A stretch of DNA of 64,000 nucleotides from Ruania suaedae (GTDB taxonomy: Bacteria; Actinomycetota; Actinomycetes; Actinomycetales; Beutenbergiaceae), in NCBI RefSeq assembly GCF_021049265.1, contig NZ_CP088018.1, positions 3,224,001-3,288,000 of the forward strand, given 5' to 3'. Made by a program: the position numbers and the translations under genes. The notes under the pieces were generated by a model. It was not told the DNA's origin. It searched no databases and worked only from the letters and a program-made list of their open reading frames with translations. Shown one piece after another: positions 1 to 24,855 of this stretch. Numbering within the stretch: the first letter of the stretch is position 1; each line of letters starts with the position of its first letter.

Positions 1-85
1 CGGGCGCCGTCGGCTCTGAGTGGGGCATGGGGCCAATCTATTGATCGGATGCGCGCACGCACAGCCGGACACGCCAAACAGCAGA

Positions 86-129: not shown

Positions 130-1284
130 ATGAAGATCACCGGCTATCGCACCCTGAGTACGACCCACCACTGGGGAAGGCCCGTTGGCGACGTCAACGG
201 CTACATCGCCTCCGGCGTGACCGACGTGCCACTCGTGATCCTCGAGACCGACGAAGGTGTCGAGGGCGTCGCGACCGGGTCCCACCACGATCTCGACCGG
301 CTCTTCCCGGCGCTCGAGGGCAAGGACCCGCGCGCAGTCACCACGCTGTACGACGCGATGCTCGCCCGGGTGTTCAAGTCCTCGCACGGCGGGGCGACGT
401 TCGGGGGCATCGGAACCCTGGACACCGCGCTGTGGGATCTCAAGGCCAAGCTGGCCGGCGAGCCGTTGTGGCGTCTGCTGGGGGGCGGAGACCGATTCGT
501 GCATGGCTACGCCTCCGGCCTGGACGCCGCCCTCACCGACGACGAGCTCGTCACCCTCTACGTCGCGTTCGCCGAGCGCGGCTACACCGCTGCCAAGCTG
601 AAGGGCGGGCGCTGCCTCGCCGACGATCTGCGTCGCTTCGCATTGGTCACCGAGACGCTCGGCGCCACGGGCACCACGCCCGCCCTCATGCTCGATGCCA
701 ACGAGTCCTGGAACGTCAAGCAGGCGGTGCGGTACGTGAGCGCGCTCGAGGAGCACGTCGACCTCACCTGGGTGGAGGAGCCGCTGCGCCGGTGGGACAC
801 CGCGGGACACGCCCGGCTGAGCCCGGCCATCAAGGCCGCCGTGGCCACTGGGGAGAACCTCACCGGGCTCGAGTGGTATCGCCCCCTGCTCGACGGCGGA
901 GGCGCCGATATCGTTCAGGCCGGTGCGATCTGGGGGATCACCCACATGCTGCGGGTGGCGATGGCCGCTCACAGCCGCGACCTGCCGTTCAGCCCCGTGG
1001 GCCTGACGGCCAACTTCGCCGTCGCAGCCGTCGCAGCCGCCGTCCCGAACCATCTCTCGTCCGAGGTGCAGGATCTCGGGGTACCGCTCGGCCTGACCGT
1101 GGACCAGCAGCTGATCGATGGCGGCATCGTGCTCGGCGAGCTGCCCGGCGCCGGCGTCGCGGTCGACGAGACGGCGATCCGCGCGGCGCGCACGGCCGAG
1201 GGATGGCAGGAGCCGGCCGGGCCGCACATGCGTCCGCATCGCAGCGGCCTGCGCATGGTCGAATCCGGCGGCTGGGGGAAATGA
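130..1284 (+). CDS. enolase-superfamily (mandelate racemase/muconate lactonizing type) acid-sugar dehydratase
   Basis: A 384-residue cytoplasmic enzyme of the mandelate racemase subgroup of the enolase superfamily, which abstracts a proton alpha to a carboxylate; most relatives dehydrate sugar acids. The canonical active-site parts are visible: a KxK pair (K156, K158) on the second barrel strand, and metal ligands D189 (LDANE), E216 (VEEP) and E242 (GEN) at the usual spacing of about 26 residues. I chose the ATG at 130 because GAGGA precedes it at 121-125 and the family N-terminus begins there; the reading frame stays open upstream to 49. It is the first gene of a tight operon, and its stop overlaps the next start (ATGA). 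Substrate cannot be read from sequence. The FAH-family dehydratase and 2-oxoglutarate-semialdehyde dehydrogenase downstream suggest that it makes a 2-keto-3-deoxy acid. Family certain, substrate inferred. Confidence 0.88.
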   Translation: MKITGYRTLSTTHHWGRPVGDVNGYIASGVTDVPLVILETDEGVEGVATGSHHDLDRLFPALEGKDPRAVTTLYDAMLARVFKSSHGGATFGGIGTLDTALWDLKAKLAGEPLWRLLGGGDRFVHGYASGLDAALTDDELVTLYVAFAERGYTAAKLKGGRCLADDLRRFALVTETLGATGTTPALMLDANESWNVKQAVRYVSALEEHVDLTWVEEPLRRWDTAGHARLSPAIKAAVATGENLTGLEWYRPLLDGGGADIVQAGAIWGITHMLRVAMAAHSRDLPFSPVGLTANFAVAAVAAAVPNHLSSEVQDLGVPLGLTVDQQLIDGGIVLGELPGAGVAVDETAIRAARTAEGWQEPAGPHMRPHRSGLRMVESGGWGK

Positions 1285-2240
1285 TGCAGATCCGCCCTGG
1301 CCTGCACCGGATCGTGGCCCCGCTCGGCGAGCGGTTCGTCGCCTTCTACCTGCTCACCGGCACCCGTGGCACGCTCCTGCTCGACACGGGGGTGGAGGAG
1401 TCGGTCTCGGGCACGCTCAAGCCCTACCTGGGTGAGATCGGCCTGGACCCGGCCGAGATCCGCTGGGCCATCAGCTCACACTGCGACTTCGACCACACCG
1501 GCGGCAACGGCGCCCTGCGCGATCTGGCCCCGCACGTCCAGCTGCTCGCGGGCCACGACGACGTGCCCATGACCGAGGATCTCGAGCTGCTCATCCGTGG
1601 CCGCTACGGCGAGTTCGCCGACGCCGACGGTTTCGACGACCCACCCGAGGCCACCGCCGAGATCCGCCGCAGCACTCGTCTCGTCCCGGTGGACCGGGCG
1701 CTGGCGGGCGGTGAGCTGATCGACCTCGGCGACCGCCGGATCGAGGTGCTGCACGCACCCGGCCACTCCCCCGGCCACCTGGCGCTCTGGGACGCGAGCA
1801 ACCGCGCCCTGCTCATCTCCGACGCCGTCCTCGGTGAGAGCGTTCTGACAGCCGACGGTGAGCCGATCTTCCCACCCACCTACCGCGACGCCGTCGCCTA
1901 CACCGACACGATCGAACGCCTTCGCAGCTACGACGCCGATCTCCTGCTGACCGCGCACTACCCGGTGTACGAGGGGGCGGAGGTCGCCGGGTTCCTGGAC
2001 CGCTCGGCTGCCTACGTCAGACGCATCGACGAGGTGATCGCCGGTGAATTGCGCGGCGGTGAGGAACTGACCTCGCTCGAGCTCATCCGTCGATGTGCAC
2101 CTCAGCTGGGCACCTGGTCCGATGCGGCCGCGGAGTACCTGATCTTCCCGATGACCGGCAACCTGGAGCGACTCACGGCCGCCGGCACCGTGCGCGAGGG
2201 CACCCGGGCGGGCCGCCGGACCTGGCAGTGGATCGCATGA
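1281..2240 (+). CDS. metallo-beta-lactamase-fold hydrolase
   Basis: A 319-residue cytoplasmic MBL-fold hydrolase (glyoxalase II-like group), probably a binuclear metal hydrolase of a thioester, lactone or ester. The first metal motif is H67-C-D-F-D-H72, that is HxDxDH rather than the usual HxHxDH. This substitution is known in several MBL subgroups and suggests altered metal binding. Later family motifs are present: HAPGHSPGH, a LLISDAVLG segment carrying the bridging Asp, and a final His in LLTAHYP. The C-terminal 70 residues look like the winged-helix tail common in glyoxalase-like MBL proteins. It starts with ATG ATG inside the preceding stop and ends by ATGA overlap with the next gene, so translation is coupled. 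A role such as lactone or CoA-thioester hydrolysis in the same pathway is inferred from position only. Confidence 0.85.
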   Translation: MMQIRPGLHRIVAPLGERFVAFYLLTGTRGTLLLDTGVEESVSGTLKPYLGEIGLDPAEIRWAISSHCDFDHTGGNGALRDLAPHVQLLAGHDDVPMTEDLELLIRGRYGEFADADGFDDPPEATAEIRRSTRLVPVDRALAGGELIDLGDRRIEVLHAPGHSPGHLALWDASNRALLISDAVLGESVLTADGEPIFPPTYRDAVAYTDTIERLRSYDADLLLTAHYPVYEGAEVAGFLDRSAAYVRRIDEVIAGELRGGEELTSLELIRRCAPQLGTWSDAAAEYLIFPMTGNLERLTAAGTVREGTRAGRRTWQWIA

Positions 2241-3304
2241 GGGTGCGTCTGGGAGCGATCGGCGCCGGCTGGTGGGCCACGAGCAACCACTTCCCGATCT
2301 TCGCCGCGCGCGAGGACGTCGAGCTGGTGGGGGTCTGCGGCAAGGGCCCGAGCCTGACCCGCGCGCAGGAGGAGTTCGGCTTCGGGTTCGCCACCGAGGA
2401 TGCCGACGAGCTCCTCGCTGCGGACATCGACGCCGTGGTCATCTCCACCCCGCACGATCTGCACCACCGGTTCGCAGCGGCGGCGCTCGATCGCGGCCTG
2501 CACGTGCTGTGCGAGAAGCCGATGACGCTCGACGCTGCCCAGGCGTGGGATCTGGCCGCCCACGCCGAGCGCTCCGGCACCGTGTTCCTGGTGCCCTACG
2601 GCTGGAACTACAAACCGTTCACCGCAGCAGCGAAGCGCATCCTCGATGACGGTGGAGTCGGGGAGATCCAGTACGTGCTGTGCCACATGGCCTCGCCCAC
2701 CCGTGGCCTGTTCGGCTCCGACCCCACGCACATGCTGCAGCGATGGAGCTCGCAGACGGCACCCGACCCCAGCACATGGGCCGATCCGGCTCACGGCGGC
2801 GGCTACGCGCACGGCCAGATCACCCACTCCTCGGCACTGCTGTCCTGGCTCACGGGCCTGCGCGCCACCACGGTGGCGGGCCGGGTGAGTGGCCCGGAGG
2901 CCGCCGTCGACCTGTTCGACGCCGCGGTGGTGCAGTTCGAGGGCGGCGCGCTGGGCACCGTCTCGGGGGCCGCCACCCTGGCCGACGGCGACAGGTACCA
3001 GCTCGACATCCGACTGTTCGGCACCGAGGGCGTGCTGATGATCGACGTGGAGCGCGAGCGGGTCGCCCTCAGCCGCTACGACGGCCGTCGCGAGGACGTC
3101 GACATCAGCCCGGGTGAGGGCGACTACGAGTGCCTCGTGCCGCCCGCGCGCTTCATCGACCTGATCACCGGCGCCAGCACCGAGAACAACTCCGACGCCC
3201 GGGTGGCCGCTCGATCGGTCGAGCTGATCGAGGCGCTGCTGCGCTCAGCCGCCGCCGGCGGCGTCGAGACGCCTGTCCACCGAGACTCCCGGAGGAACAC
3301 ATGA
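2237..3304 (+). CDS. Gfo/Idh/MocA family NAD(P)-dependent oxidoreductase
   Basis: A 355-residue two-domain oxidoreductase. Residues 1-120 form a Rossmann fold opening with the GxGxxG variant GAIGAGW, followed by the family signature CEKPM with catalytic K94. Residues from about 130 to the end form the alpha/beta dimerisation and substrate domain. Members oxidise or reduce sugars, inositols and sugar derivatives using a tightly or loosely bound NAD(P). The ATG at 2237 overlaps the upstream stop, and the ATGA at the end overlaps the CoA-transferase start. In this operon it is the only obvious candidate for the first oxidation of a sugar or sugar acid; that assignment is inference. The substrate is unknown. 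Confidence 0.9.
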   Translation: MRVRLGAIGAGWWATSNHFPIFAAREDVELVGVCGKGPSLTRAQEEFGFGFATEDADELLAADIDAVVISTPHDLHHRFAAAALDRGLHVLCEKPMTLDAAQAWDLAAHAERSGTVFLVPYGWNYKPFTAAAKRILDDGGVGEIQYVLCHMASPTRGLFGSDPTHMLQRWSSQTAPDPSTWADPAHGGGYAHGQITHSSALLSWLTGLRATTVAGRVSGPEAAVDLFDAAVVQFEGGALGTVSGAATLADGDRYQLDIRLFGTEGVLMIDVERERVALSRYDGRREDVDISPGEGDYECLVPPARFIDLITGASTENNSDARVAARSVELIEALLRSAAAGGVETPVHRDSRRNT

Positions 3305-4521
3305 CCGACGCCGGACCCCGCGGAGTCCTCGACGGCTACCGCGTCATCGACTGCTCCATCGCCATGGCCGGGCCGTTCGCCGCGCAGCGCCTCGGCGACC
3401 TCGGCGCCGATGTCGTCAAGGTGGAGCCGACCTCTGGCGAGTGGCAGCGGGCCGCGGCTGCCGGGGGCGCGACGGGCAACGAGATCAACGTGTCCTTCCT
3501 GAGCCTGAACCGGAACAAGCGGTCCCTGGCGATCGATCTGAAGTCCGAGGACGGGCGCCAGATCGTGCACGAGCTCGTCGCCGGCGCCGACGTCTTCCTG
3601 CAGAACTACCGCCCCGGCGTGGCCGCCCGGCTCGGCCTCGACTACGACACCCTGGCCGCGATCAACCCGGCCCTGGTCTACGTGTCCATCTCCGGCTACG
3701 GCGAGGACGGGCCCTACCGGGACCGCCCGGGCCAGGACCTCATCCTGCAGGCCATGAGCGGGGCGATGCTCTCCGCCGGGCGCGACGGCGAGCCGCCCGC
3801 GCCGGCCGGGCAGTACCTGGCCGATGCCGTCACCGCCTCGACCGCGTTCGAGGGCGTGCTCGCCGCGCTGCTGCACCGCGAACGCACGGGCGAGGGCCAG
3901 CTGGTCACCGTCAACATGCTCGACGCCCTCACCACGCTGCAGATGCAGGAGCTGAGCGTGTACACCGTCGGAGGAGTGCCCCAGCAGCGGGGCACCGAGC
4001 CCCACGCGCACGTCTACATCCGAGCGCCGTACGGGATCTTCGAGACGGCGGACGGATTCCTGGCGCTCGCGTTCGCGGACCTCGACGCGCTCGGGGCGGT
4101 GCTGGCGGAGCCGCGACTGGCGGGGCTCGACGCCGAGACCCACGGCTGGACCCACCGGGACGAGCTGCACGCGATCGTCGCGGCGCACCTGCGCCGGCAG
4201 AACACCCAGCACTGGCTGGACGTGCTGCTTCCCGCCGGGATGTGGGTGGGGCCGGTGTACGGCTACGAGCAGCTGGTGCAGGACCCGCAGATCCAGCACA
4301 ACCAGACGTTCGTCGAGTACGACCATCCGACCGAGGGCCGGGTGAAGACCCCCGGCTTCCCCTACCGGATGACGAAGACGCCCCCGCGGATCGATCGGGG
4401 TGCGCCACGGGTCGGCGAGCACACGCGGGAGATCCTGAACGAGCTCGGCGTCGATCCTGATCGCACCGAACGCCTCGTCGGTGACGGCGTGGTGGCCGAG
4501 CCCGTCAGCGCCCCGGTATGA
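3301..4521 (+). CDS. CaiB/BaiF (class III) CoA-transferase
   Basis: A 406-residue class III CoA-transferase, which moves CoA between carboxylic acids through an aspartyl-acyl intermediate. The N-terminal block VIDCSIAMAGPFAAQRLGDL, the VVKVEP motif, NRNKRSLAIDLKS and the RPGQD segment with the likely nucleophile D146 are all family-typical, and the length is normal. The proteins interlock as a dimer in the family. It is coupled by ATGA overlaps on both sides. Together with the enoyl-CoA hydratase downstream it implies that one intermediate of this operon is processed as a CoA thioester, which is unusual beside the FAH/semialdehyde-dehydrogenase pair. The acid substrate is unknown. Confidence 0.93.
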   Translation: MTDAGPRGVLDGYRVIDCSIAMAGPFAAQRLGDLGADVVKVEPTSGEWQRAAAAGGATGNEINVSFLSLNRNKRSLAIDLKSEDGRQIVHELVAGADVFLQNYRPGVAARLGLDYDTLAAINPALVYVSISGYGEDGPYRDRPGQDLILQAMSGAMLSAGRDGEPPAPAGQYLADAVTASTAFEGVLAALLHRERTGEGQLVTVNMLDALTTLQMQELSVYTVGGVPQQRGTEPHAHVYIRAPYGIFETADGFLALAFADLDALGAVLAEPRLAGLDAETHGWTHRDELHAIVAAHLRRQNTQHWLDVLLPAGMWVGPVYGYEQLVQDPQIQHNQTFVEYDHPTEGRVKTPGFPYRMTKTPPRIDRGAPRVGEHTREILNELGVDPDRTERLVGDGVVAEPVSAPV

Positions 4522-5633
4522 CCGACTACGTCGGGCTCACCTGGGACCATCCACGCGGCCGGAACGCTCTGGAGGCGGCCGCCGCTCGGAGGTCCGGACC
4601 GGGCAGCTCGACCGGACTGGGCGGTGGCGACACGCTGCGCTGGGAGGCTCAGCCGCTGGAGGGGTTCGAGTCCGCCTCGATCACCGATCTCGCCGCGCGC
4701 TACGACGTGCTCGTGCTCGACCACCCGCACCTCGGCGACGCCCTGGCCGCGGACTGCCTGCATCCGATCGACACGCTCCTGTCGACCGAGCAGGTGCGCC
4801 GCCTGGAGCAGGGCGCCGTGGGAGCCAGCGTGCGCTCCTACCTGCTCGGCTCGCACCTGTGGGCCCTCCCGCTCGACGCCGCCACGCAGGTGAGCGCGCG
4901 ACGCCCGCACGCGCTCGCCGAGCCACCCGCGACGTGGCAGGAGGCGGTCGGGCTCGCCGGCGGCGGACGGCTCGCGATGAGCCTGGCCGGTCCGCACGCC
5001 TTCCTGACCCTGTGCTCGATCACCGTCTCCCTCGGCGGCGAGATCTCACCCTCCTCCTTCGACCGCACGGCGGCCGGGCAGGCGCTGGAGATCCTGACGG
5101 CCCTGTCCGCGAACGTGCCGGCCGGGAGCGAGCGGCTGAACCCGATCGGGCTGCTGGAGCGGATGCGCACCATGGGCGACATCGACTACATCCCGCTCGT
5201 CTACGGCTACGTCACCTACGCCGCCGACCTCGCGTTCGGACCACCGCCCCGGGGTAGGTGCATCGGGTCCACGATCGGCGGCACCGGAATCGCCCTGACC
5301 CGGCGTAGCACTCCCTCGCCCGCGCTGGTGGAGCACCTGAGCTGGCTCCTCGCCGAGGAGACCCAGCGCACCTTCATCCCCGCCCATGACGGTCAGCCCA
5401 GCGCCCGCGCCTCCTGGGCCGACCCGGAGGTCGATGCCGCCGCCCACGGGTTCTACTCGGCCACCCGCCAGACGATGGAGGCGGCGTGGGTCCGGCCACG
5501 GTTCGCCGGCTACGTCCCCGTCCAGAGTGAGTCCGCACGGATCGTCCGCTCCGCCGTCCTCGATGGGCGGCCTGCCGGCCACGCTCTCGACGAGCTGCAG
5601 GAACTGTTCACCGACCGACCGGAGACCTCATGA
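4518..5633 (+). CDS. solute-binding-protein-like cytoplasmic protein (no signal peptide)
   Basis: A 371-residue protein that resembles the periplasmic-binding fold of sugar ABC-transporter solute-binding proteins. Features include ITDLAARYDVLVLDHPHLG, a LWALPLDAATQV hinge-like segment, SLAGPHAFLTL, and a C-terminal helical part ending LDELQELF. It has no hydrophobic N-terminal segment, lipobox or Tat motif, so it should stay in the cytoplasm. No permease or ATPase gene is next to it; it sits between a CoA-transferase and an enoyl-CoA hydratase with ATGA overlaps on both sides. I believe related proteins without signals are found beside CoA-transferases in other bacteria. A binding, chaperone or regulatory role for the operon's small-molecule intermediate is possible but unsupported. 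Fold call moderately sure, function unknown. Confidence 0.7.
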   Translation: MTDYVGLTWDHPRGRNALEAAAARRSGPGSSTGLGGGDTLRWEAQPLEGFESASITDLAARYDVLVLDHPHLGDALAADCLHPIDTLLSTEQVRRLEQGAVGASVRSYLLGSHLWALPLDAATQVSARRPHALAEPPATWQEAVGLAGGGRLAMSLAGPHAFLTLCSITVSLGGEISPSSFDRTAAGQALEILTALSANVPAGSERLNPIGLLERMRTMGDIDYIPLVYGYVTYAADLAFGPPPRGRCIGSTIGGTGIALTRRSTPSPALVEHLSWLLAEETQRTFIPAHDGQPSARASWADPEVDAAAHGFYSATRQTMEAAWVRPRFAGYVPVQSESARIVRSAVLDGRPAGHALDELQELFTDRPETS

Positions 5634-6412
5634 CCCTCACGTCCGGCACCGAGCTCATCGCGGTCGACGTCCATGACCACGTCGCCACGATCCGGCTGAA
5701 CCGGCCCGCCAAGCTCAACGCCGTCACCCAGGAGATGAGCGCCGACCTGGTCCGGATCATCCACACGATCAACGAGGACCCTGCGATCCGGGCGCTCGTC
5801 TACACCGGTACCGGCCGCGCCTTCTGCGCCGGTAGCGACATCACCACCCTGGACGAGTACGCCACGCCGTGGCAGTTCCGCAACCGCCACGACTACTGCG
5901 ACGCGCTGCGCGCGTGCCGCAAGCCGATCATCGCCGCCGTCAACGGCTACGCCTTCGGCGGCGGCCTCGAGGCCGCACTCACCTGCGACATCCGCATCGC
6001 GGCTGAGTCCGCGACCTTCGCCGCGCCCGAGGTCACGCTCGGATGGATCGGCGGCGGGGGCATGTCGCCGCTGCTCGCCGCCTCGGTAGGTCCGGGCAAC
6101 GCGGCGCTGATGCTGATGACCGGCGACCGGATCGACGCCTCCCAGGCGCTCGCGTGGGGCATGGTCAGCCAGGTGCTGCCCGCCGACCGGCTGCTGGAGC
6201 GCGCCCAGGAACTCGCCGCGATGATCGCCGCTCGCCCCCCGATCGCCGTCGAGACGGCGAAGGCGAACCTGCGGGCGGCGCAGAACATGCCGCTCGATCA
6301 GGCCATCGGCTATGAGCGCGAGCTGCAGGCGATCACCTTCGCCACCGACGACGCCAGGGAGGGCCGTGCGGCGTTCGCCGAGAAGCGCACCGGCGTCTTC
6401 CACGGCCGCTGA
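5630..6412 (+). CDS. enoyl-CoA hydratase/isomerase (crotonase) family protein
   Basis: A 260-residue crotonase-fold enzyme acting on CoA thioesters, of typical length. The oxyanion-hole segments FCAGSDI and GYAFGGGLEAAL are intact. Both glutamates used by hydratases are present, one in GGGLEAAL and one in PEVTLGWIGGGG, so hydratase activity is plausible rather than only isomerase or hydrolase activity. The start ATG at 5630 overlaps the upstream stop. A 17-base gap then separates it from the FAH-family gene, the only non-overlapping junction in this operon, bridged by a GAGGAGA ribosome-binding sequence. It presumably works on the thioester made by the CoA-transferase two genes upstream. Confidence 0.93.
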   Translation: MTLTSGTELIAVDVHDHVATIRLNRPAKLNAVTQEMSADLVRIIHTINEDPAIRALVYTGTGRAFCAGSDITTLDEYATPWQFRNRHDYCDALRACRKPIIAAVNGYAFGGGLEAALTCDIRIAAESATFAAPEVTLGWIGGGGMSPLLAASVGPGNAALMLMTGDRIDASQALAWGMVSQVLPADRLLERAQELAAMIAARPPIAVETAKANLRAAQNMPLDQAIGYERELQAITFATDDAREGRAAFAEKRTGVFHGR

Positions 6413-6429
6413 CACGAGGAGAGACACCG

Positions 6430-7623
6430 ATGACGACCTGGATCCCCCCGGTCACCGACATCCTGCCGCAGGACCACGCCGAGGCCGTGCTGGTCGGGCG
6501 CGCCTGGCTGCCCCACGCCCCGGGACCGGCCGTCGTGGCCGTCCGCGCCGGTGAGCTGCTCGACCTCTCGGCCACCTTCCCCACGATGCGCGACCTCACC
6601 GAGCAGCCCGACCCGGGTGCGGCCGCCGCCGCAGCGACCGGCCCGTCGATCGGACCGCTCGAGAGCGTCTGGGCCAACACGAACCCGGACCACCGCGACG
6701 AGCGGCATCCCTGGCTGCTCTCACCGATCGACCTGCAGGTCATCAAGGCGGCGGGCGTGACGTTCCCGGTCTCGATGCTCGAACGGATCATCGAGGAGCG
6801 CGCCCGGGGCGAGGCGGCGACCGCGCAGCACATCCGCGGCACCATCCTGGAGGCGATCGGCGGCGACATCGCCGATCTGGTTCCCGGCTCCGACGCCGCC
6901 GCCCGGCTCAAGGAGGTGCTGCTCGAGGCGGGCCTGTGGAGCCAGTACCTCGAGGTCGGCATCGGCCCGGATGCCGAGATCTTCACCAAGGCACCGGTCC
7001 TCGCCTCCGTCGGGCCCGGTGCGGACGTGGGCGTGCTCGCCGAGTCGGAGTGGAACAACCCCGAGCCTGAGGTGGTCCTGGCCGTCTCGTCCACGGGCGC
7101 GATCGTCGGCGCCACGCTCGGCAACGACGTGAACCTGCGCGACATCGAGGGCCGCTCCGCTCTGCTGCTGGGCCGGGCCAAGGACAACAACGCCTCCGCC
7201 TCCCTCGGCCCGTTCCTGCGCCTGTTCGATGCGACCTTCACCCTCGACGACGTGCGCCACGAGACCGTCTCGCTCACCGTCACCGGTGCGGACGACTTCC
7301 GGATGGAGGCCACCTCGGACATGGCGCGCATCAGCCGCGACCCCGCCGACCTGGTCCATCAGGCCACCGGGGACCATCACGCCTATCCCGACGGCTTCGT
7401 GCTCTACCTCGGCACCATGTTCGCCCCCACCGCCGATCGCGGTGTGGCGGGCCACGGTTTCACCCACCACCCTGGAGACGTCGTCCGGATCGCCTCCCCG
7501 GGGCTGGGCGCGCTCGTCAACCGCGTCCAGCACTGCGAGTCCCTGCCCCCGTGGGAGTTCGGGATCGGGGCCCTCATCTCCACCCTCGCCCAGCGAGACC
7601 TGATCGGAAGGATGACTCGATGA
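6430..7623 (+). CDS. FAH-family 2-keto-3-deoxy-sugar-acid dehydratase
   Basis: A 397-residue fumarylacetoacetate-hydrolase-fold protein. The metal-binding block EWNNPEPEV (E207 to E214), followed by LGNDVNLRDIEGRSALLLGRAKDNNAS with D233, is characteristic of the branch that includes 2-keto-3-deoxy-D-xylonate and L-arabinonate dehydratases of the Weimberg-type pathway. That reaction loses water to give 2,5-dioxopentanoate (2-oxoglutarate semialdehyde). The next gene encodes exactly the dehydrogenase that consumes this product, and overlaps it by ATGA. Length and architecture match that branch rather than true fumarylacetoacetases. Family and branch are fairly sure; the stereochemistry and carbon length of the sugar acid are not known. 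Confidence 0.85.
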   Translation: MTTWIPPVTDILPQDHAEAVLVGRAWLPHAPGPAVVAVRAGELLDLSATFPTMRDLTEQPDPGAAAAAATGPSIGPLESVWANTNPDHRDERHPWLLSPIDLQVIKAAGVTFPVSMLERIIEERARGEAATAQHIRGTILEAIGGDIADLVPGSDAAARLKEVLLEAGLWSQYLEVGIGPDAEIFTKAPVLASVGPGADVGVLAESEWNNPEPEVVLAVSSTGAIVGATLGNDVNLRDIEGRSALLLGRAKDNNASASLGPFLRLFDATFTLDDVRHETVSLTVTGADDFRMEATSDMARISRDPADLVHQATGDHHAYPDGFVLYLGTMFAPTADRGVAGHGFTHHPGDVVRIASPGLGALVNRVQHCESLPPWEFGIGALISTLAQRDLIGRMTR

Positions 7624-9134
7624 CCACCCTGTCGACGACCGACCCACGCACCGGCACCAGCACGCCGACCCTGCTCGAGCACACCGGTCCCGAGCGGCTG
7701 GTCGAGATCACCAGCCGTGCGCGGGACGCCTTCGGCGACCTGCGCACCCGGAGCCGCACCTGGCGAGCCGGGCTGCTGCGGGCGCTCGCCGACGGTGTCG
7801 AGGAGGACCGGGAGGCGCTCGTGAGCACGGCGATGAGCGAGACGGGCCTGCCCGAACCGCGGCTGAACGGCGAACTCTCCCGCTCGGTCTACCAGCTGCG
7901 CCTGTTCGCCGACGTCGTCACCGACGGCGGGTACCTCGAGGCGATCATCGACCACGCCGGGCAGACCCCGCTAGGCCCCGGCCCCGACGTGCGCCGCATG
8001 CTCATCCCCCTCGGCCCGGTCGCCGTCTTCGGGGCCAGCAACTTCCCCTTCGCCTTCTCCGTGCTCGGCGGCGACACCGCCTCGGCCCTGGCGGCGGGAG
8101 GCTCGGTGGTCATCAAGGCCCACAGCTCCCACCTGCTGACGTCCCAGCAGTCCTACGACAGTCTCGCCCGGGCGGCTGCGGCCTACGGGGCACCGGAGGG
8201 CACGATCGGCATCGTCTACGGTCAGCAGGCCGGCGCCGACCTGGTCCGCGACCCCCGCATCACCGCCGTCGGTTTCACCGGGTCGTTGTCGACGGGCACG
8301 ATCCTGCAGTCCCTGATCGACGAGCGCCCCACCCCGATCCCCTTCTTCGGTGAGCTCTCCAGCCTCAACCCGCTGGTGCTCACCACCGGCGCCCTGGCCG
8401 AGCGGGGTGAGGAGATCGCCGAGGGCCTGTACACCTCCTTCACCGGCTCGGCCGGGCAGCTGTGCACCAAACCCGGCGTCGCGCTCGTGCCCGAGGGGGA
8501 GGCCGGGGACGCGCTCGTCGCCGGTCTGGTCGCACGCGGCGAGGCCGCCGGGCCGCAGACGCTGCTGAACTCCCGCATCCACGACAGCTTCGGTGAGATC
8601 CGCACCCGGCTCATCGAGGACGGGCGCGCACGCAGCCTGCTGGCACCCCGGGCCGGTGAGCAGGGCTTCGCGCTCACCCCGGCCGTGCTCGAGATCGACG
8701 CCGACGACGTCACCCCCGCCGTCGCCGAGGAGGCCTTCGGCCCCCTGATCGTGGTGGTCCGCTATCGCGACCTGGCGCAGGTCCGTTCGACCCTGACGGC
8801 TGTGCCCGACTCGCTGACGGCGACGATCCACTCGGGGGCCGGTGAGGAGAGCGAGCGGCAGGCCCTGACCGAGGCCGTGCGGGACGTCGTCGGGCGGATC
8901 GTCTACGACGGCTACCCGACCGGGGTGCGGGTGTGCTGGGCGATGCACCACGGCGGCCCGTGGCCGGCCACGAACACCCAGCACACCTCCGTGGGCGCCA
9001 CCGCCGTGCGCCGTTTCCTGCGCCCGCTCGCCTGGCAGGATGCGCCCCAGCACGTGTTGCCGACAGAATTGCGCGATGGCCCGGTCGACATCCCCCGCCG
9101 GGTCGACGGCGTGCTGCAGCCGGCCGGGGACTGA
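7620..9134 (+). CDS. 2,5-dioxovalerate (2-oxoglutarate semialdehyde) dehydrogenase
   Basis: A 504-residue aldehyde dehydrogenase that oxidises 2-oxoglutarate semialdehyde to 2-oxoglutarate with NAD(P). The branch is recognisable from FGASNFPFAFSVLGGDTASALAAG, VIKAHSSH, VGFTGS, FFGELSSLNP with general base E245, and GSAGQLCTKPG with nucleophile C282. The conserved end is GYPTGVRVCWAMHHGGPWPATN. The start ATG lies in the stop of the preceding FAH gene, which points to coupled synthesis of consecutive enzymes. It is the last gene of the operon and is followed by a strong hairpin. The product enters the TCA cycle, so the operon probably feeds a C5-type acid into central metabolism. Confidence 0.93.
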   Translation: MTTLSTTDPRTGTSTPTLLEHTGPERLVEITSRARDAFGDLRTRSRTWRAGLLRALADGVEEDREALVSTAMSETGLPEPRLNGELSRSVYQLRLFADVVTDGGYLEAIIDHAGQTPLGPGPDVRRMLIPLGPVAVFGASNFPFAFSVLGGDTASALAAGGSVVIKAHSSHLLTSQQSYDSLARAAAAYGAPEGTIGIVYGQQAGADLVRDPRITAVGFTGSLSTGTILQSLIDERPTPIPFFGELSSLNPLVLTTGALAERGEEIAEGLYTSFTGSAGQLCTKPGVALVPEGEAGDALVAGLVARGEAAGPQTLLNSRIHDSFGEIRTRLIEDGRARSLLAPRAGEQGFALTPAVLEIDADDVTPAVAEEAFGPLIVVVRYRDLAQVRSTLTAVPDSLTATIHSGAGEESERQALTEAVRDVVGRIVYDGYPTGVRVCWAMHHGGPWPATNTQHTSVGATAVRRFLRPLAWQDAPQHVLPTELRDGPVDIPRRVDGVLQPAGD

Positions 9135-9203: not shown

Positions 9204-10496
9204 TCAGTCCTCGCGGAGGAACAGCTCCACCACCGGCACCGCGACATCGGGCCGCACGGCCGGCAGCTGCAGCGTGACCGTCCCCGCCGGCTGCTCGCCG
9301 GGGGTGATGTGCTCGAGCTGGTGGTTGGCGTCGGTGCGCCCGCCGCCGGCCACGCGCACCTGAAGCTGGGACCCGTCGTGCAGGAACCGCGCGAACTGGA
9401 CCGAGCCGGGCAGGTCGCGCAGGTGCACGTGCTTGAGCGGCCAGTGCAGCAGGTGCACGTAGAGGCGATCCTCCCGCCGGGTGAGCGCCGTCCCGGGGGC
9501 CGGGGTCGCCACGACCGGTCCGGCACCGATGATCGCCTGGCGGTGCAGGCGCATCCAGGACGCCAGCTGCTGCAACGAGGCGGTGTCGTGCGGGGTCATG
9601 GCGCCACGGCCGTCGGGACCGATGTTGAGCAGGAGGTTCCCGTTCTTGGACACGATGTCGATCAGGGTGCGGATCAGCAGGTCCGGCGTCTTGAGGTTGC
9701 GGTTCTCCCGGTCATAGCCCCACGCCCCGTTCATGGTGTGGCAGGCCTCCCAGGTCTGCCACGCGCCGTCCTCGGTCATCATCGGGGCGTCCGGCAGGTA
9801 CTGCTCCGGGGTGATCAGATCGCCCGGGATGCCCAGCCGGTCGTTGACCACGGCCCCGGGCTGCAGCTCCCGGGTCATCGCGAGCAGACCGGCCGAGTCC
9901 CAGTCCTGCGGGCCCTTGCCGGCCCAGCCATCCTGCTCCCAGGGGTAGGTGAAGTCGTAGAAGACATAGTCGATCGGCCCGTACCCGGTCAGCAGCTCGC
10001 GCACCTGCCCGTGCAGGAACTGCCGGTAGCGCTCCATGTCGCGTCCGGCGTTCAGCTCGGCGGCGTCCGGGCGGTCCCGCAGCGGATGCTGGAAGTCGAT
10101 GGTGAAGTCCGGGTGGTGCCAATCGATCAGGGAGTAGTAGATCCCTACCCGTAGTCCTACGCGGCGGCATGCTTCGACGGTCTCGGCCACCAGATCTCGA
10201 CCGAAGAACGCGCTCGAGCTGTAGTCGCTGAGGCCGGTCTCATACAGCGCGAAGCCGTCGTGATGCTTGGCGGTGAGCACGAGGTAGCCCATACCCGCGT
10301 CCTTGGCCGCGCGGGCCAGGGTGTCGGCGTCGAACAGGTCGGGGTCGAAGTACCGGGCGAGGCGCTCGTACTCGGCCGGATCGATGCGCTCGTTGGTCAT
10401 CACCCACTCGTGCCGGGCCAGGGTGGAGTAGACGCCGAAGTGGACGAACATCCCGAACCGGTCGTGGGTGAACCACGCCGGCACCGCGCCCGCCAT
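9204..10496 (-). CDS. GH29 alpha-L-fucosidase, cytoplasmic
   Basis: A 430-residue glycoside hydrolase of family GH29, retaining alpha-L-fucosidases. The N-terminal motif WFTHDRFGMFVHFGVYS, the YLVLTAKHHDGFALY block and the presumed nucleophile D181 in DYVFYDF are clear, as is the end motif NGNLLLNIGPDGRG. A short beta domain makes up the last 90 residues. No signal peptide is present, so it should cleave imported fucosides inside the cell. The ATG at 10496 shares one base with the stop of the upstream permease (TGATG). It is the last gene of the leftward glycan operon. The fucose released could be degraded by the rightward operon's SDR, enolase-like protein and DapA-like aldolase; that link is inferred. 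Confidence 0.92.
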   Translation of the reverse strand: MAGAVPAWFTHDRFGMFVHFGVYSTLARHEWVMTNERIDPAEYERLARYFDPDLFDADTLARAAKDAGMGYLVLTAKHHDGFALYETGLSDYSSSAFFGRDLVAETVEACRRVGLRVGIYYSLIDWHHPDFTIDFQHPLRDRPDAAELNAGRDMERYRQFLHGQVRELLTGYGPIDYVFYDFTYPWEQDGWAGKGPQDWDSAGLLAMTRELQPGAVVNDRLGIPGDLITPEQYLPDAPMMTEDGAWQTWEACHTMNGAWGYDRENRNLKTPDLLIRTLIDIVSKNGNLLLNIGPDGRGAMTPHDTASLQQLASWMRLHRQAIIGAGPVVATPAPGTALTRREDRLYVHLLHWPLKHVHLRDLPGSVQFARFLHDGSQLQVRVAGGGRTDANHQLEHITPGEQPAGTVTLQLPAVRPDVAVPVVELFLRED

Positions 10497-11488
10497 CAGA
10501 ACAGGCTCGTCTTCGCCACGCGCCGAGCCAGCCAGTTGGCCAGCACGAGCATGATGACGGCGATCACCGACTTGAACAGCCCGATCGCCGCGGCGTAGGA
10601 GTACTGCGGGATCGAGGAGGCGAAGGCGACGTTGTAGGAGTAGGTGTCGATCACCTCGGAGACGTTGAGGTTCAGCGGCGTCTGCATCAGCAGCACCTTC
10701 TCGAAGCCGACCGAGAGCATCGAACCCATGTTGAGGATCAGCAGCGTCACCATCACCGGCAGGATGCCGGGCAGATCGATGTGCCAGATCCGACGCACGA
10801 TCGAGGCGCCGTCCACCTTGGCCGCCTCGTGCAGCTGCGGATCGATACCCGCCAGCGCGGCCAGGTAGATGATCGCCGAGTAACCCAGCGTCTGCCAGGC
10901 ACCGGACCAGACGTAGGTGTGCCGGAACAGCTCCGCGCTCAGGAAGTCGGTCGGCGTGCCGCCCATCCCGACGATGACCTGGTTGACGATGCCCCCGCTC
11001 GGGGAGAACAGCATGATGATGATGCCCACGACCACGACGGTGGAGATGAAGTACGGCGCGTAGGTGATCAGCTGCACGCTGCGCTTGAACTTCATGTTGC
11101 GCACCACGTTCAGCAGCAGCGCGAGGATGATCGGAAGAGGGAAGAGGGCGATCAACTCGTAGAAGTTCAGGACGAGCGAGTTCCTGATGACCGTCCCGAA
11201 CTGGAACGAGTTCACGAACTGCTCGACGTACTTCAGCCCTGCCCACGGGCTGCCACTGATGCCCAGAGCCACACTGAAGTCCCTGAACGCCATCTGCAGG
11301 CCGTACAGCGGGGCCCACATGAAGAGGATGGCGTAGATGAACGGAGGCAACAGCAGCACATACAGGCGCCAGGAGCGCTTGAGGCGCAGCCCGAGCGGGT
11401 ACTGGTGCTTCTTCGCCGGAGGCCGGCTTGCCGGGGCAGGTGCCGAGGACCGCGAGGCGCGCGGTGCGGCAGTGGTCGGTGTCGTCAT
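10496..11488 (-). CDS. sugar ABC transporter permease, LplB type
   Basis: A 330-residue CUT1-family permease (MalF/UgpA class, closest in look to LplB), with a Pro/Ala-rich cytoplasmic N-terminus and about six membrane segments. The cytoplasmic EAA loop that contacts the ATPase is present as EAAKVDGASIVRRIWHIDLPGILP, here with A and K following the E. It ends WLARRVAKTSLF, typical of this subgroup. It pairs with the permease encoded just upstream and with the lipoprotein binding protein. No ATPase gene is found anywhere in the locus, so it must use a shared MsiK/MsmX-type ATPase encoded elsewhere. The oligosaccharide is unknown. Confidence 0.93.
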   Translation of the reverse strand: MTTPTTAAPRASRSSAPAPASRPPAKKHQYPLGLRLKRSWRLYVLLLPPFIYAILFMWAPLYGLQMAFRDFSVALGISGSPWAGLKYVEQFVNSFQFGTVIRNSLVLNFYELIALFPLPIILALLLNVVRNMKFKRSVQLITYAPYFISTVVVVGIIIMLFSPSGGIVNQVIVGMGGTPTDFLSAELFRHTYVWSGAWQTLGYSAIIYLAALAGIDPQLHEAAKVDGASIVRRIWHIDLPGILPVMVTLLILNMGSMLSVGFEKVLLMQTPLNLNVSEVIDTYSYNVAFASSIPQYSYAAAIGLFKSVIAVIMLVLANWLARRVAKTSLF

Positions 11489-11505
11489 CGTTCAGGCTCC
11501 CTGGC

Positions 11506-12405
11506 TCACTTGAGCGAACCGATCAGCGCACCCTTGGTGAAGTGCTTCTGGACGAACGGGTAGGCGATCAGGGGCGGGATCATCGCGACCACGATCAGGG
11601 CGTACTTGAGCTTGTCGAAGAGCTCCTTGCGCCGGATCAGCTCGGAGACGTCACCGCCGATCATGGACGGATCCACCTGGCTCTGCGTCAGGATGTCCCG
11701 CAGCACCAGCTGCAGCGGGAACAACGTGTCGTCGGAGAGGTAGAGCAGCGCGTTGAACCAGCCGTTCCACTGGGTGATCGCGTAGAACAGGATGTTCACT
11801 GCGATGATCGGCTTGCTCAGCGGAATAGCCATCTTGAAGAAGAACCGGAAGTCGGTGGCGCCATCGACCTGCGCCGCCTCGAGCATCTCCTTCGGGATGT
11901 TCATCCGGTAGAACGTCATCGTGATGATCATGTTGAAGACGTTGAGGACACCGGGCAGCACCACGGCCCAGATCGAGTTCATCAACCCCAGCGCGTTCAC
12001 GATCATGTAGGTCGGGATGATGCCCGCGCTGAACAGGAACGGGATGAGGAAGAAGAACATCAGGATGCGCCGGAACGGCAGATCGTCCCTCGAGAGCACG
12101 TAGCCGGCCAGCAGGGTCAGGAACGTGCCGATGGCCGAGCCGAGGACGGTGTAGAGCACCGAGTTGAGGAAGCCCCGCACCAACCGTGGGGAGCCGAGCA
12201 CCTCGGCGTAGGCGTCGAAGTTCAGCCCGACCGGCAGGAACCAGACGTCCCCGCGCGTGAGCGCGTCGGCGCTGGACACCGACGCACTCAGCACGAAGAC
12301 CAACGGATAGAGCACCGACAGGGTGAAGATCGCCAGCAGCACGTACGTACTGACCATGAAGGCGGCATCACCACCGGTGTACTTCATCCGGCGAGCGCGG
12401 AGCAT
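11506..12405 (-). CDS. sugar ABC transporter permease, YtcP/MalG type
   Basis: A 299-residue second permease of the importer, with six predicted membrane segments. Its EAA loop is EAAQVDGATDFRFFFKMAIPLSKP, and it has the conserved end PFVQKHFTKGALIGSLK of the LplC/YtcP subgroup. The frame is open upstream into the preceding gene. I chose the ATG at 12405, eight bases after the upstream stop, because the protein then begins MLRARRMKYTGG like its relatives; the ATG at 12387 is an alternative. It lies 17 bases before the partner permease. Heterodimer formation with that partner is known for the family. Confidence 0.9.
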   Translation of the reverse strand: MLRARRMKYTGGDAAFMVSTYVLLAIFTLSVLYPLVFVLSASVSSADALTRGDVWFLPVGLNFDAYAEVLGSPRLVRGFLNSVLYTVLGSAIGTFLTLLAGYVLSRDDLPFRRILMFFFLIPFLFSAGIIPTYMIVNALGLMNSIWAVVLPGVLNVFNMIITMTFYRMNIPKEMLEAAQVDGATDFRFFFKMAIPLSKPIIAVNILFYAITQWNGWFNALLYLSDDTLFPLQLVLRDILTQSQVDPSMIGGDVSELIRRKELFDKLKYALIVVAMIPPLIAYPFVQKHFTKGALIGSLK

Positions 12406-12413
12406 GGGCAGAC

Positions 12414-14180
12414 TCACCCCTGACGCGCGTCGAAGACTTGCTGGTGCAGGTCGATGTACTCCGGCAGGCCCATGGAGTCGAACGCGGACACGTAGGACTC
12501 CCATGCTGCGTCATCGTTGATGTCGAGCTCACCGATGGCGAAGTTCGCCATGTGCTGGCGCACGTGGCTCTCGATCGAGGCAGCGATGTCGGCACGCCGT
12601 GACGCCTGCGACTCGTCGAAGATCAGTGCCGGGAGGAAGAACTCCTGCGGCTGCTGATAGGGCTCGTACTCGGTGGTGGCTTCGTACAGCGCCACCTCCA
12701 TGTCGGGCTTGTCCGGGTCGGAGAGCTGCCCCAACCGGAAGTCGTTGGAGTTGTACGCCGGGGCGAGACCGCCGAGGCTGGTTCCCGACTCCGGTGGCCA
12801 GGTCACCCGGTCCCAGATGGCCTGCTTGCCGTTGATGCCGAGGTCTCCTTCTTCGGCGTAGTTCCAGTTGTCCGTGTTGCCGGACGCTGCGCGCAGCGAG
12901 CCCTCGAGCGTGAACATGTAGTCGAACCACTGCACGAGCACCTCGGGGTTCTCGCAGTTGCGCGTGATGACGAACGGGCGACTGCGGTCGGTCTCCCAGT
13001 TCCAGTTCGCGTACCGCACGCCGCTGGGGCCCTCGAGCGGCGGCACCGAGACATACTCGCGCCACAGAGCATCCGGCTCGTCGGAGATGTCGGCGAAGAA
13101 TCCGGGGTAGTAGCTGCGCACGAAGCCCAGCCGGCCCTGGTTGCCTGCCTGCAGCAGCTCATCGCTCGTCGTCGTGAACGTCTGGCGGTCCAGCGTCCCA
13201 TCGTCGGCGAGGGTGCGCAGGTAGCGCAGGCCCTCGCGCCACTCGTCCTTGTCGGCGACGAACTCCACCTGGCCCTCGTTCAGGCGGAGCCATCCGCCAC
13301 CATCACCCTCCGAACCCGGGTTGTACAGGAACGAGTTCATGATGAAGTTGTCGATGAAGTCGTTCGGGCCACCGCCCGAGAACGGGATCATCTGGCCGGT
13401 GCCGGAGGGGTCCTGCTCCTTGAACAGCCGGAGCACCTCGCGCAGGTCCTCGGTGGTCTGCGGCATCTCGGCCCCCACCGCCTCGAGGTACCGGGCGTTG
13501 ATGTACGCGCGCGAGGGGCTGACGCGGCAGTGATAGCAGTCGTTCGGAGCGGCCATCTGGTACTTGTGGCCGTCCGTCGCCGTGATCGCCGCGCCCCAGT
13601 CCGGGTAGTCGGTCATCATCTGACGCATCGCCGGGGCGTAGGTCTCGATGAGGTCCTCCAGGGGGAGGAACACACCCTGGCTCCCGTACAGCGAGACCTG
13701 GTCGTTGGTGAACGGCACCGTCAGGTAGGCGTCCGGCATGTCACCCGCGGTCATCTGGGCGTTCACGCGCGTGAGGTCGGCGTCCTCGTTGAGGACGACC
13801 TCGTAGTTCACCTTGACGCCGGTCTGTTCCTCCATCCACTGGGTGAACTCGTTGGTGTTCCAGTCCCCGACGTCGTTCGGGTTGAGCCGGACGCCGATCG
13901 TGAAGGTCGCGTCGCCGGTGTAGAACGGCTCGCGCACGTAGGCCCGGGGACCGACGTAGCCGTCCGGGTAGAGGATGCCGTCGGTGATCTCCTCACCCAG
14001 CTGCACCTGCTCGACGCCGTCGACGCCGCTGGCCTCGATCTCCTCCGGCGTCTCCGCCTCCGGGTCGCTGCCGCACGCGGCGAGGACACCGGTCGTGGCG
14101 AGCGCACCGGCGCCCGCTGTGCCGTAGCGAAGCAGTGAGCGACGGTCGAGGTCGCGCTCCAGGGGGTTGAACGTGGTCAT
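12414..14180 (-). CDS. lipoprotein solute-binding protein of sugar ABC importer (LplA-like)
   Basis: A 588-residue extracellular solute-binding lipoprotein. The N-terminus contains twin arginines (DRRSLLRYG), a hydrophobic stretch and the lipobox LAAC, so it is probably exported (possibly by Tat), lipidated on that Cys and held on the outer face of the membrane. The mature protein is larger than ordinary sugar binding proteins (about 400 residues), matching the LplA-like class that handles oligosaccharides. It is rich in Asp, Glu, Trp and Tyr, as expected for glycan binding. It sits 24 bases downstream of the GH28 gene and directly before the two permeases. The ligand is unknown; the neighbouring GH28 and GH29 enzymes suggest a pectic or fucosylated oligosaccharide. 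Confidence 0.92.
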   Translation of the reverse strand: MTTFNPLERDLDRRSLLRYGTAGAGALATTGVLAACGSDPEAETPEEIEASGVDGVEQVQLGEEITDGILYPDGYVGPRAYVREPFYTGDATFTIGVRLNPNDVGDWNTNEFTQWMEEQTGVKVNYEVVLNEDADLTRVNAQMTAGDMPDAYLTVPFTNDQVSLYGSQGVFLPLEDLIETYAPAMRQMMTDYPDWGAAITATDGHKYQMAAPNDCYHCRVSPSRAYINARYLEAVGAEMPQTTEDLREVLRLFKEQDPSGTGQMIPFSGGGPNDFIDNFIMNSFLYNPGSEGDGGGWLRLNEGQVEFVADKDEWREGLRYLRTLADDGTLDRQTFTTTSDELLQAGNQGRLGFVRSYYPGFFADISDEPDALWREYVSVPPLEGPSGVRYANWNWETDRSRPFVITRNCENPEVLVQWFDYMFTLEGSLRAASGNTDNWNYAEEGDLGINGKQAIWDRVTWPPESGTSLGGLAPAYNSNDFRLGQLSDPDKPDMEVALYEATTEYEPYQQPQEFFLPALIFDESQASRRADIAASIESHVRQHMANFAIGELDINDDAAWESYVSAFDSMGLPEYIDLHQQVFDARQG

Positions 14181-14204
14181 GCTCTTACCTCTCTTCGTTG
14201 AGAC

Positions 14205-15536: not shown

Positions 15537-15580
15537 TGCCTTTCGTTCCCACGTCCTCGTGCGATCAGACTCTCCGAAGG

Positions 15581-15629
15581 TACTATGTATGACCCTTCTG
15601 GTCAAGATCGTACCTATGACGTATGTAAG
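15581..15629 (-). promoter_or_regulatory. AT-rich promoter/operator region of the GH28-ABC-fucosidase operon
   Basis: This lies in the 106-base gap between the acetyltransferase-fusion stop (15643) and the GH28 start (15536). It is markedly AT-richer than its surroundings. It holds the related elements TACTATGTATGAC (15581-15593) and TACCTATGACGTATG (15611-15625), which share TATGAC and ATGTATG-like cores, as expected for paired regulator sites. It probably provides an internal promoter for the importer genes. The exact -10 and -35 were not assigned. Confidence 0.45.
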
Positions 15630-24812: not shown

Positions 24813-24855
24813 CAACGGAGCCTCCACCAGCCCACCGCACCGACGAAGGAGTCAG

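Follow-up and report, generated by a model that had tools for sequence, protein, structure and literature searches.

A candidate coenzyme A-dependent aldonate dehydration module in a Weimberg-type sugar acid operon of Ruania suaedae and its bacterial relatives

The Weimberg pathway is a nonphosphorylative oxidative pentose pathway, known in its Caulobacter form with the enzymes XylX and XylA. Here we describe an operon of Ruania suaedae that carries genes for such a pathway together with genes for a coenzyme A (CoA)-transferase (here CaiB), a crotonase, and an orphan protein with the fold of a sugar-binding protein, the three of which we refer to as the CoA module. The operon occupies positions 130 to 9134 of a 64,000-nucleotide stretch (the window; contig positions 3224001 to 3288000) of the 3.56-Mb genome, which is assembled as a single contig. 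Tentatively, we propose that this one operon serves Weimberg-type oxidation of a pentose-type sugar to 2-oxoglutarate, with the aldonate being dehydrated as a CoA thioester. A functional linkage between the two gene sets appears to be very likely.

All eight genes of the operon lie on the plus strand. In order, they encode a protein of the MR_MLE enolase superfamily (130 to 1284; MR_MLE_N/C Pfam matches) that has the KxK and D/E/E ligand motifs but neither residue of the usual His-Asp dyad; a metallo-beta-lactamase (MBL)-fold hydrolase, possibly a lactonase (1284 to 2240; Lactamase_B, E = 5e-24); a Gfo/Idh/MocA oxidoreductase, possibly a sugar 1-dehydrogenase (2237 to 3304; GFO_IDH_MocA Pfam match); the family III (CaiB/BaiF) CoA-transferase (3301 to 4521; CoA_transf_3, E = 1.9e-108); the orphan, a leaderless MalE/SmoF-fold protein resembling sugar-binding proteins (4518 to 5633); the crotonase (5630 to 6412; ECH_1, E = 2.4e-63); a putative XylX-type FAH-fold 2-keto-3-deoxy-aldonate dehydratase (6430 to 7623; FAA_hydrolase match); and an NADP-type aldehyde dehydrogenase resembling 2-oxoglutarate semialdehyde dehydrogenase (KGSADH) (7620 to 9134; Aldedh, E = 2.6e-39). 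As read from the sequence, successive genes overlap by 1 (or 4), 4, 4, 4, and 4 nucleotides (nt), are then separated by a gap of 17 nt, and overlap again by 4 nt, the first value depending on which of two possible start codons (1281 or 1284) is used by the MBL gene. The first-pass annotation had placed a CoA-transferase, an enoyl-CoA hydratase, an MBL hydrolase, a binding-fold protein, and the FAH and semialdehyde dehydrogenase proteins in one coupled operon, and this gene content and coupling are borne out; the MR_MLE and Gfo/Idh genes, which lie within the same span, had not been named in its reasoning. Among the NCBIfam models listed, none scored above its own cutoff for any of the eight proteins, and the specific functions given here are therefore predictions.

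Judged from its sequence, the FAH gene would provide the 2-keto-3-deoxy aldonate dehydratase of a Weimberg-type pathway. Its product matches structure 9kkt (E = 1.8e-125), which is deposited only as "FAH family protein" and which is possibly Caulobacter XylX; a search of the open-access literature by entry code found no relevant paper on this structure. A further match is the 2-keto-3-deoxy-D-arabinonate dehydratase 2q18 (E = 3.6e-14), and the FAH proteins at loci carrying the CoA module retain the blocks common with 9kkt. The closest solved relatives of the aldehyde dehydrogenase are 1eyy (E = 3.2e-96) and 3v4c (E = 3.6e-95), presumably both of the KGSADH-type NADP group, and the NCBIfam equivalogs of KGSADH type score far below their cutoffs on this protein. 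The substrate of the FAH enzyme, a 2-keto-3-deoxy acid, is normally supplied by an aldonate dehydratase of the IlvD/EDD or MR_MLE family. In the operon, none of the eight proteins has a Pfam match to IlvD/EDD, and the only MR_MLE protein lacks the dyad.

The CoA-transferase and the crotonase have the sequence features of a CaiB/CaiD-type pair. In that system, a carnitine CoA-transferase and a carnitinyl-CoA dehydratase together dehydrate carnitine with recycling of CoA. The best solved relatives of the window CaiB are succinate-HMG (hydroxymethylglutarate) and formyl-CoA transferases, and an Asp that we take to be the catalytic residue is aligned with theirs and conserved in at least 95% of the family alignment. 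(Family alignments included only relatives above set identities and comprised, with the window protein, 36 rows for MR_MLE, 77 for CaiB, 76 for crotonase, 59 for FAH, 32 for KGSADH, and 84 for the orphan.) Succinyl-CoA-using members are found among both the best model matches and the best solved relatives of CaiB. Among solved structures, a 3-hydroxypropionyl-CoA dehydratase is the best relative of the crotonase, with enoyl-CoA hydratases also aligned, and two Glu positions, presumably the catalytic ones, are conserved both in the family alignment and in that to the solved relatives. Since a Pfam and NCBIfam scan of the operon proteins revealed no CoA ligase, acyl-CoA dehydrogenase, or thiolase, a CoA-recycling dehydration would be the simplest net reaction.

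The orphan protein gave no Pfam match at an E value of ≤0.01 and no NCBIfam match at ≤1e-4. Its AlphaFold2 model, built from a 34-row alignment (mean pLDDT of 94.0), has a MalE-type fold, with MalE/LpqY/SmoF-type binding proteins of sugar ATP-binding cassette (ABC) transporters as its structural matches in Foldseek (best E = 2.1e-18; query-normalized TM scores of 0.75 to 0.81 for the ten best matches). In 82 of 83 orphan proteins, a conserved [TS]WDH motif starts 1 to 7 residues past the match start (it was not found in the remaining one), and 59 of the 83 genes lack any in-frame start codon in the interval 45 to 300 nt upstream. The N terminus thus seems to leave no room for a signal peptide, and the protein reads as a leaderless binding-fold protein; neither a signal peptide or lipobox, going by the start codon and motif positions, nor a permease partner in the window operon was found. 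A secreted transporter component was accordingly considered and rejected, given at most 7 residues before the motif and the missing upstream starts. A separate search of 296 genomes returned clear orphan relatives in 3, that of R. suaedae included, while weak partial matches in 6 of the 9 matching genomes (E = 8.8e-6 to 4.3e-4) were dismissed as generic binding proteins.

The R. suaedae genome holds a second CaiB-orphan pair (L015:7955-10260; contig positions of about 3379950 to 3382260), 41% and 33% identical, respectively, to the window pair by tblastn. It adjoins genes for a glycoside hydrolase (GH) family 95 alpha-L-fucosidase and an Amidohydro_2 (lactonase-type) protein, and no crotonase, FAH, or KGSADH match was found within 19 kb of it.

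Gene families, operon linkage, the conserved catalytic residues of CaiB and crotonase, and the loss of the MR_MLE dyad are read from the sequence; the reactions, their order, the identity of the substrate, and what the orphan and the MR_MLE protein do are inferred. The dehydrogenase (Gfo/Idh in the window, a short-chain dehydrogenase [SDR] in most relatives) would produce a lactone, the opening of which may be assisted by the MBL hydrolase; a DUF4432 protein is present in many relatives of the operon. CaiB, primed for example from succinyl-CoA, would then move CoA onto the aldonate, which the orphan with its leaderless sugar-binding fold might hold or present to it. The crotonase would eliminate the 3-hydroxyl and the 2-hydrogen, tautomerization would give the 2-keto-3-deoxy-acyl-CoA, and CaiB would hand the CoA on to the next aldonate. 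Applied to an aldonate, a CaiB/CaiD-like dehydration would thus yield the very 2-keto-3-deoxy acid that is the substrate of FAH, which would dehydrate it to 2-oxoglutarate semialdehyde for conversion to 2-oxoglutarate by KGSADH. Replacement of the usual aldonate dehydratase by CaiB and crotonase is thus a plausible, if still tentative, reading of the operon. With somewhat greater reserve, we suggest that this aldonyl-CoA route may be widespread, with a three-protein machine of CoA-transferase, crotonase, and cytoplasmic binding-fold protein acting instead of metal-dependent or Fe-S aldonate dehydratases and with the orphan recruited from ABC transport as a substrate-presenting subunit.

To follow the two gene sets across bacteria, we scanned 84,980 species genomes with a four-row orphan alignment. 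At least 536 stretches encode a relative, and the best 80, a set biased towards similarity to the window protein, were analyzed as loci, with presence or absence judged in fetched flanks of up to 10 kb per side. Genes in GC-rich loci were called with our own script, which missed or extended some frames; 20 representatives of neighbor clusters were family tested, the names of other clusters, including the importer genes c2, c3, and c11, being read from sequence. CaiB and crotonase are present in all 80 loci. Over 83 loci (the 80 plus L015 to L017), the distance between CaiB and the orphan is no more than 100 nt in 80, and in 75 the crotonase gene begins no more than 100 nt downstream of the orphan. 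FAH is found in 57 of the 80 loci (on the other strand in L060, L062, and L092) and KGSADH in 30, each of the latter also having FAH; of 53 ordered crotonase-FAH pairs, 40 have a gap of at most 100 nt. By group, FAH is present in 40 of 43 actinomycetotal, 16 of 30 alphaproteobacterial, 1 of 5 burkholderialean (a Comamonadaceae metagenome-assembled genome), and 0 of 2 acidobacterial loci, and the KGSADH carriers are 26 actinomycetotal and 4 Azospirillum loci. The complete set of eight window genes recurs in 15 of the 80 loci (in Microbacterium, Galbitalea, Agromyces, and Leifsonia) and also in L016 (genome G268), in which it is preceded by genes apparently encoding a sugar ABC importer.

These counts bear on the possibility that two unrelated operons simply came to lie side by side. 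Each gene set does also occur alone. However, FAH relatives (E ≤ 1e-60) were detected in only 24 of 394 genomes from the window's own class and in 46 of 240 from the class that includes the Azospirillum genome G303 (the R. suaedae genome and G303 being included in the respective counts), i.e., in 6 to 19% of genomes, so that their presence in 57 of 80 orphan loci is far above chance. The gene orders in two of the loci likewise disfavor mere adjacency, since the two sets are interleaved there: in L053 (Actinoallomurus), KGSADH follows CaiB after about 9 nt, and orphan, crotonase, and FAH are located across a LacI gene; L087 (Nocardioides) has the arrangement KGSADH-orphan-FAH-crotonase, with the crotonase being only 34% identical to that of the window. 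Given this co-occurrence and interleaved order, and the overlapping, closely spaced genes in the window, we rejected chance adjacency as highly improbable. Correlations calculated on the family alignments (r = 0.76 to 0.90; 0 of 999 permutations) do not tell co-inheritance apart from shared organism phylogeny.

Not all loci have the same architecture. In six of them (L046, L057, L076, L080, L087, and L089) the crotonase is only 30 to 38% identical to that of the window, and in all of these except L087 the CaiB protein is 37 to 40% identical. Those five alphaproteobacterial loci show a second form, with the order orphan-CaiB and the distant crotonase nonadjacent or upstream. Two genes precede the module in L031, L035, L059, L072, and similar loci, namely, c5 (in 23 of the 80), which encodes an IolG-like Gfo protein, and c7 (in 22 of the 80), which encodes an AP_endonuc_2 TIM-barrel protein; together they may form a 3-keto-glycoside or inositol-like step.

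Within the operon itself, the MR_MLE protein is another candidate for the aldonate dehydratase. Compared with 5xd7/5xd9 and 2pp0, it has the KxK and all three acidic ligand motifs, with a Pro at the position of the dyad His and the Asp of the QPD motif absent. Both residues are likewise absent from the ten other module-associated proteins shown (11 of 11 with the window; the ten are drawn from 39 MR_MLE proteins of loci L018 to L097, 34 of which are >50% identical to the window protein), and the Gly and Ser-Pro that replace them are themselves conserved in the 36-row alignment. Sixteen MR_MLE proteins were taken from module-free FAH loci; His and Asp are both present in 14, namely all 13 actinomycete ones encoded beside FAH and that of L215; those of L213 and L218, which are not beside FAH, have the His only. 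Going by these alignments, the dyad loss and its conserved replacements indicate that the window protein is not a canonical His-Asp acid-sugar dehydratase.

It might nevertheless dehydrate the aldonate with a lysine as base and some other residue as acid, leaving CaiB, the orphan, and the crotonase to handle a second acid or an acyl group from the same plant polymer. MR_MLE, MBL, Gfo, FAH, and KGSADH would by themselves make up a full Weimberg route, the KxK and metal-ligand motifs are retained, an MR_MLE protein >50% identical to that of the window occurs in 34 of the 80 loci, and the lysine could act alone. Against this, 46 of the 80 loci do not have this MR_MLE, a CoA ligase, acyl-CoA dehydrogenase, or thiolase that could process a second acid further is missing from the window operon, and L053 and L087 show interleaving of the two sets. 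Moreover, 14 loci with the module, FAH, and KGSADH have neither MR_MLE nor IlvD/EDD in their flanks. Altogether, we regard dehydration by the MR_MLE protein as rather unlikely.

The same 14 loci bear directly on a CoA-dependent dehydration. Seven of them also have no TIM-barrel gene c7, and the four Azospirillum loci (L081, L082, L090, and L091) are reduced to SDR-CaiB-orphan-crotonase-FAH-KGSADH. Only one of the 80 loci, L028, has an IlvD/EDD gene, at the locus edge and on the opposite strand. In 24 actinomycete FAH loci (22 plus the window and L016), FAH is accompanied by MR_MLE in 13, by IlvD/EDD in 2, by the CoA module in 5, and by none of these in 4. We consider this empty dehydratase slot to be supportive of a CoA route but not decisive.

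Several observations weigh against dehydration by the module. The module is without FAH in 23 of the 80 loci. In a survey of 71 FAH places from two genome draws (69 plus the window and G268), only 6 hold the module (the window, L016, L158, L159, L172, and L200), two of which are in the genomes on which the draws were centered. Outside its center genome, the alphaproteobacterial draw contains 46 FAH places, all without the module. Of the five actinomycete module loci, four (the window, L016, L158, and L159) also hold the dyad-less MR_MLE, with L172 as the only one without it. Of the 46 module-free alphaproteobacterial FAH loci, 36 likewise have no dehydratase nearby, so that a local absence is weak on its own and mainly the actinomycete survey is informative. 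Similarly, an FAH 67% identical to that of the window (L160:9300, in G225, a genome of the same genus as G268) has neither the module nor a dehydratase match at a distance of up to about 10 kb. Dehydratase genes are also present elsewhere in the genomes: R. suaedae holds nine MR_MLE matches, including that of the operon, and two IlvD/EDD genes; each of the 15 module genomes searched has at least one IlvD/EDD gene, 6 of them having a single, presumably biosynthetic one; and MR_MLE matches, some of them probably MenC or enolase, were found in all 10 other module genomes searched, at 3 to 8 each. Finally, we know of no precedent for a crotonase acting on a 2,3-dihydroxyacyl-CoA.

The IlvD/EDD search covered 12 of the 14 loci without a local dehydratase (all except L027 and L091), and the general claim that these genomes have no other aldonate dehydratase was rejected on account of the IlvD/EDD and MR_MLE genes found elsewhere. 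The two IlvD/EDD genes of R. suaedae are neighbors on the minus strand (contig positions 2408271 to 2411125).

The module thus mostly occurs with FAH, and FAH mostly occurs without the module; they are separable modules that are often joined. The first-pass annotation had taken conserved separate occurrence as the sign of two merely adjacent operons, and such occurrence is indeed seen in part, with 23 of the 80 module loci having no FAH and only 6 of the 71 FAH places having the module, but joining in 57 loci and the interleaved orders speak for more than adjacency. Of the two alternatives that it left open, an undescribed route through a CoA intermediate is the better supported by the 57 loci with FAH, the 30 with both FAH and KGSADH, and the interleaving, and the handling of two separate substrates less so.

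Dehydratase genes elsewhere in the genome would also suit a module that epimerizes or rearranges the sugar acid, by reversible dehydration and hydration of its CoA ester, on behalf of an ordinary dehydratase encoded at a distance. The CaiB family includes 2-methylacyl-CoA racemases, and crotonases are reversible. The Azospirillum operon, however, shows only SDR, module, FAH, and KGSADH as recognized genes, and we consider such an epimerization to be unlikely.

As for the substrate, the genomic context hints at sugars that derive from pectin or have the fucose configuration; in some relatives, 6-deoxy acids may be used. Outside the operon and convergent with it, the window encodes a GH29 alpha-L-fucosidase (9204 to 10499, minus strand, start approximate; Alpha_L_fucos, E = 6.1e-79), followed on the same strand by an ABC importer (10496 to 14180), comprising a permease (10496 to 11488; BPD_transp_1), what reads as a second permease (11506 to 12504), and a binding protein (12414 to 14180; SBP_bac_1), and by a GH28 pectin-type hydrolase (14205 to 15605; Glyco_hydro_28, E = 4.3e-19). 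Apart from its bearing on the operon, the stretch from 9204 to 15605 reads as a locus for pectin or fucoside use. The suggestion also draws on the GH95 gene at the paralogue, on GH28-like and GH141-like clusters in 11 and 20 loci, respectively, and on the Sphingobium locus L042, which encodes a rhaM-type protein, an L-lactate dehydrogenase above its NCBIfam cutoff, a GH2 protein, and a glyoxylate-reductase-like gene product. Fucose itself was considered and kept as a candidate.

These genes could equally be taken to mean that the module acts on a 6-deoxy or hexonic acid, such as L-fuconate from fucosylated pectin, with FAH having another substrate and KGSADH being needed for some substrates only. 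The fucosidases in the window and beside the paralogue fit this, as do the window GH28 and the two clusters, one tested member of which matches RHGA/GH28 models (11 loci) and another GH141_M (E = 1.6e-8; 20 loci). In L042, the rhaM-type protein adds to this, and the combination of L-lactate dehydrogenase and glyoxylate-reductase-like gene fits a 6-deoxy or hexonic acid better than a pentose-type substrate. Conversely, the FAH proteins of module loci retain the 9kkt blocks, 30 of the 80 loci have KGSADH, and the glycosidase context does not fix the monosaccharide. We regard this reading as unlikely.

Further features of the window include the 5' end of a divergent GntR/FCD regulator gene (1 to 28, minus strand; FCD, E = 2.7e-21; GntR, E = 4.4e-19), the remainder of which lies upstream of the window (L004:17283-18029). 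On the plus strand, another MR_MLE gene and the SDR gene after it (20691 to 22900) possibly form a separate sugar acid unit, and a large protein with a right-handed beta-helix match (24664 to 27003) is possibly a further pectin-type enzyme.

A search of the open-access full-text literature found no description of a CoA step in such a sugar acid pathway. If the proposed route holds true, a textbook oxidative sugar pathway would have an overlooked form in several bacterial groups, with sugar acids dehydrated through CoA-ester chemistry under recycling of CoA. A large family of at least 536 relatives, for which no Pfam or NCBIfam model was found, would gain a function, and the presence of CaiB/crotonase pairs in sugar operons could be explained. 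Aldonate dehydration free of iron-sulfur clusters might also be of use for engineered pentose utilization.

In comparison with known systems, the operon resembles the Caulobacter Weimberg pathway in combining a dehydrogenase, an FAH-fold 2-keto-3-deoxy acid dehydratase, and a KGSADH-like enzyme, with 2-oxoglutarate as the expected product, but has CaiB, the orphan, and the crotonase instead of an IlvD/EDD xylonate dehydratase or a canonical His-Asp MR_MLE enzyme. The MR_MLE protein shares its fold, the KxK motif, and three acidic metal-ligand motifs with talarate/galactarate dehydratase (2pp0) and anhydrogalactonate cycloisomerase (5xd7), whereas, in the module-associated proteins shown, other residues or gaps take the place of the dyad His and Asp. 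The orphan has the same fold as the sugar ABC-transporter binding proteins MalE, LpqY, and SmoF but differs from them in having no space for a signal peptide, in its gene being located between those for a CoA-transferase and a crotonase, and in having no Pfam or NCBIfam match. With CaiB/CaiD, finally, the module shares the pairing of a family III CoA-transferase with a crotonase, and presumably also the CaiD-type removal of a beta-hydroxyl as water while CoA is cycled between substrate and product. Unlike that system, it includes an extra binding-fold gene, stands in an operon without CoA ligase, acyl-CoA dehydrogenase, or transporter genes, and is predicted to use a polyhydroxy sugar acid.

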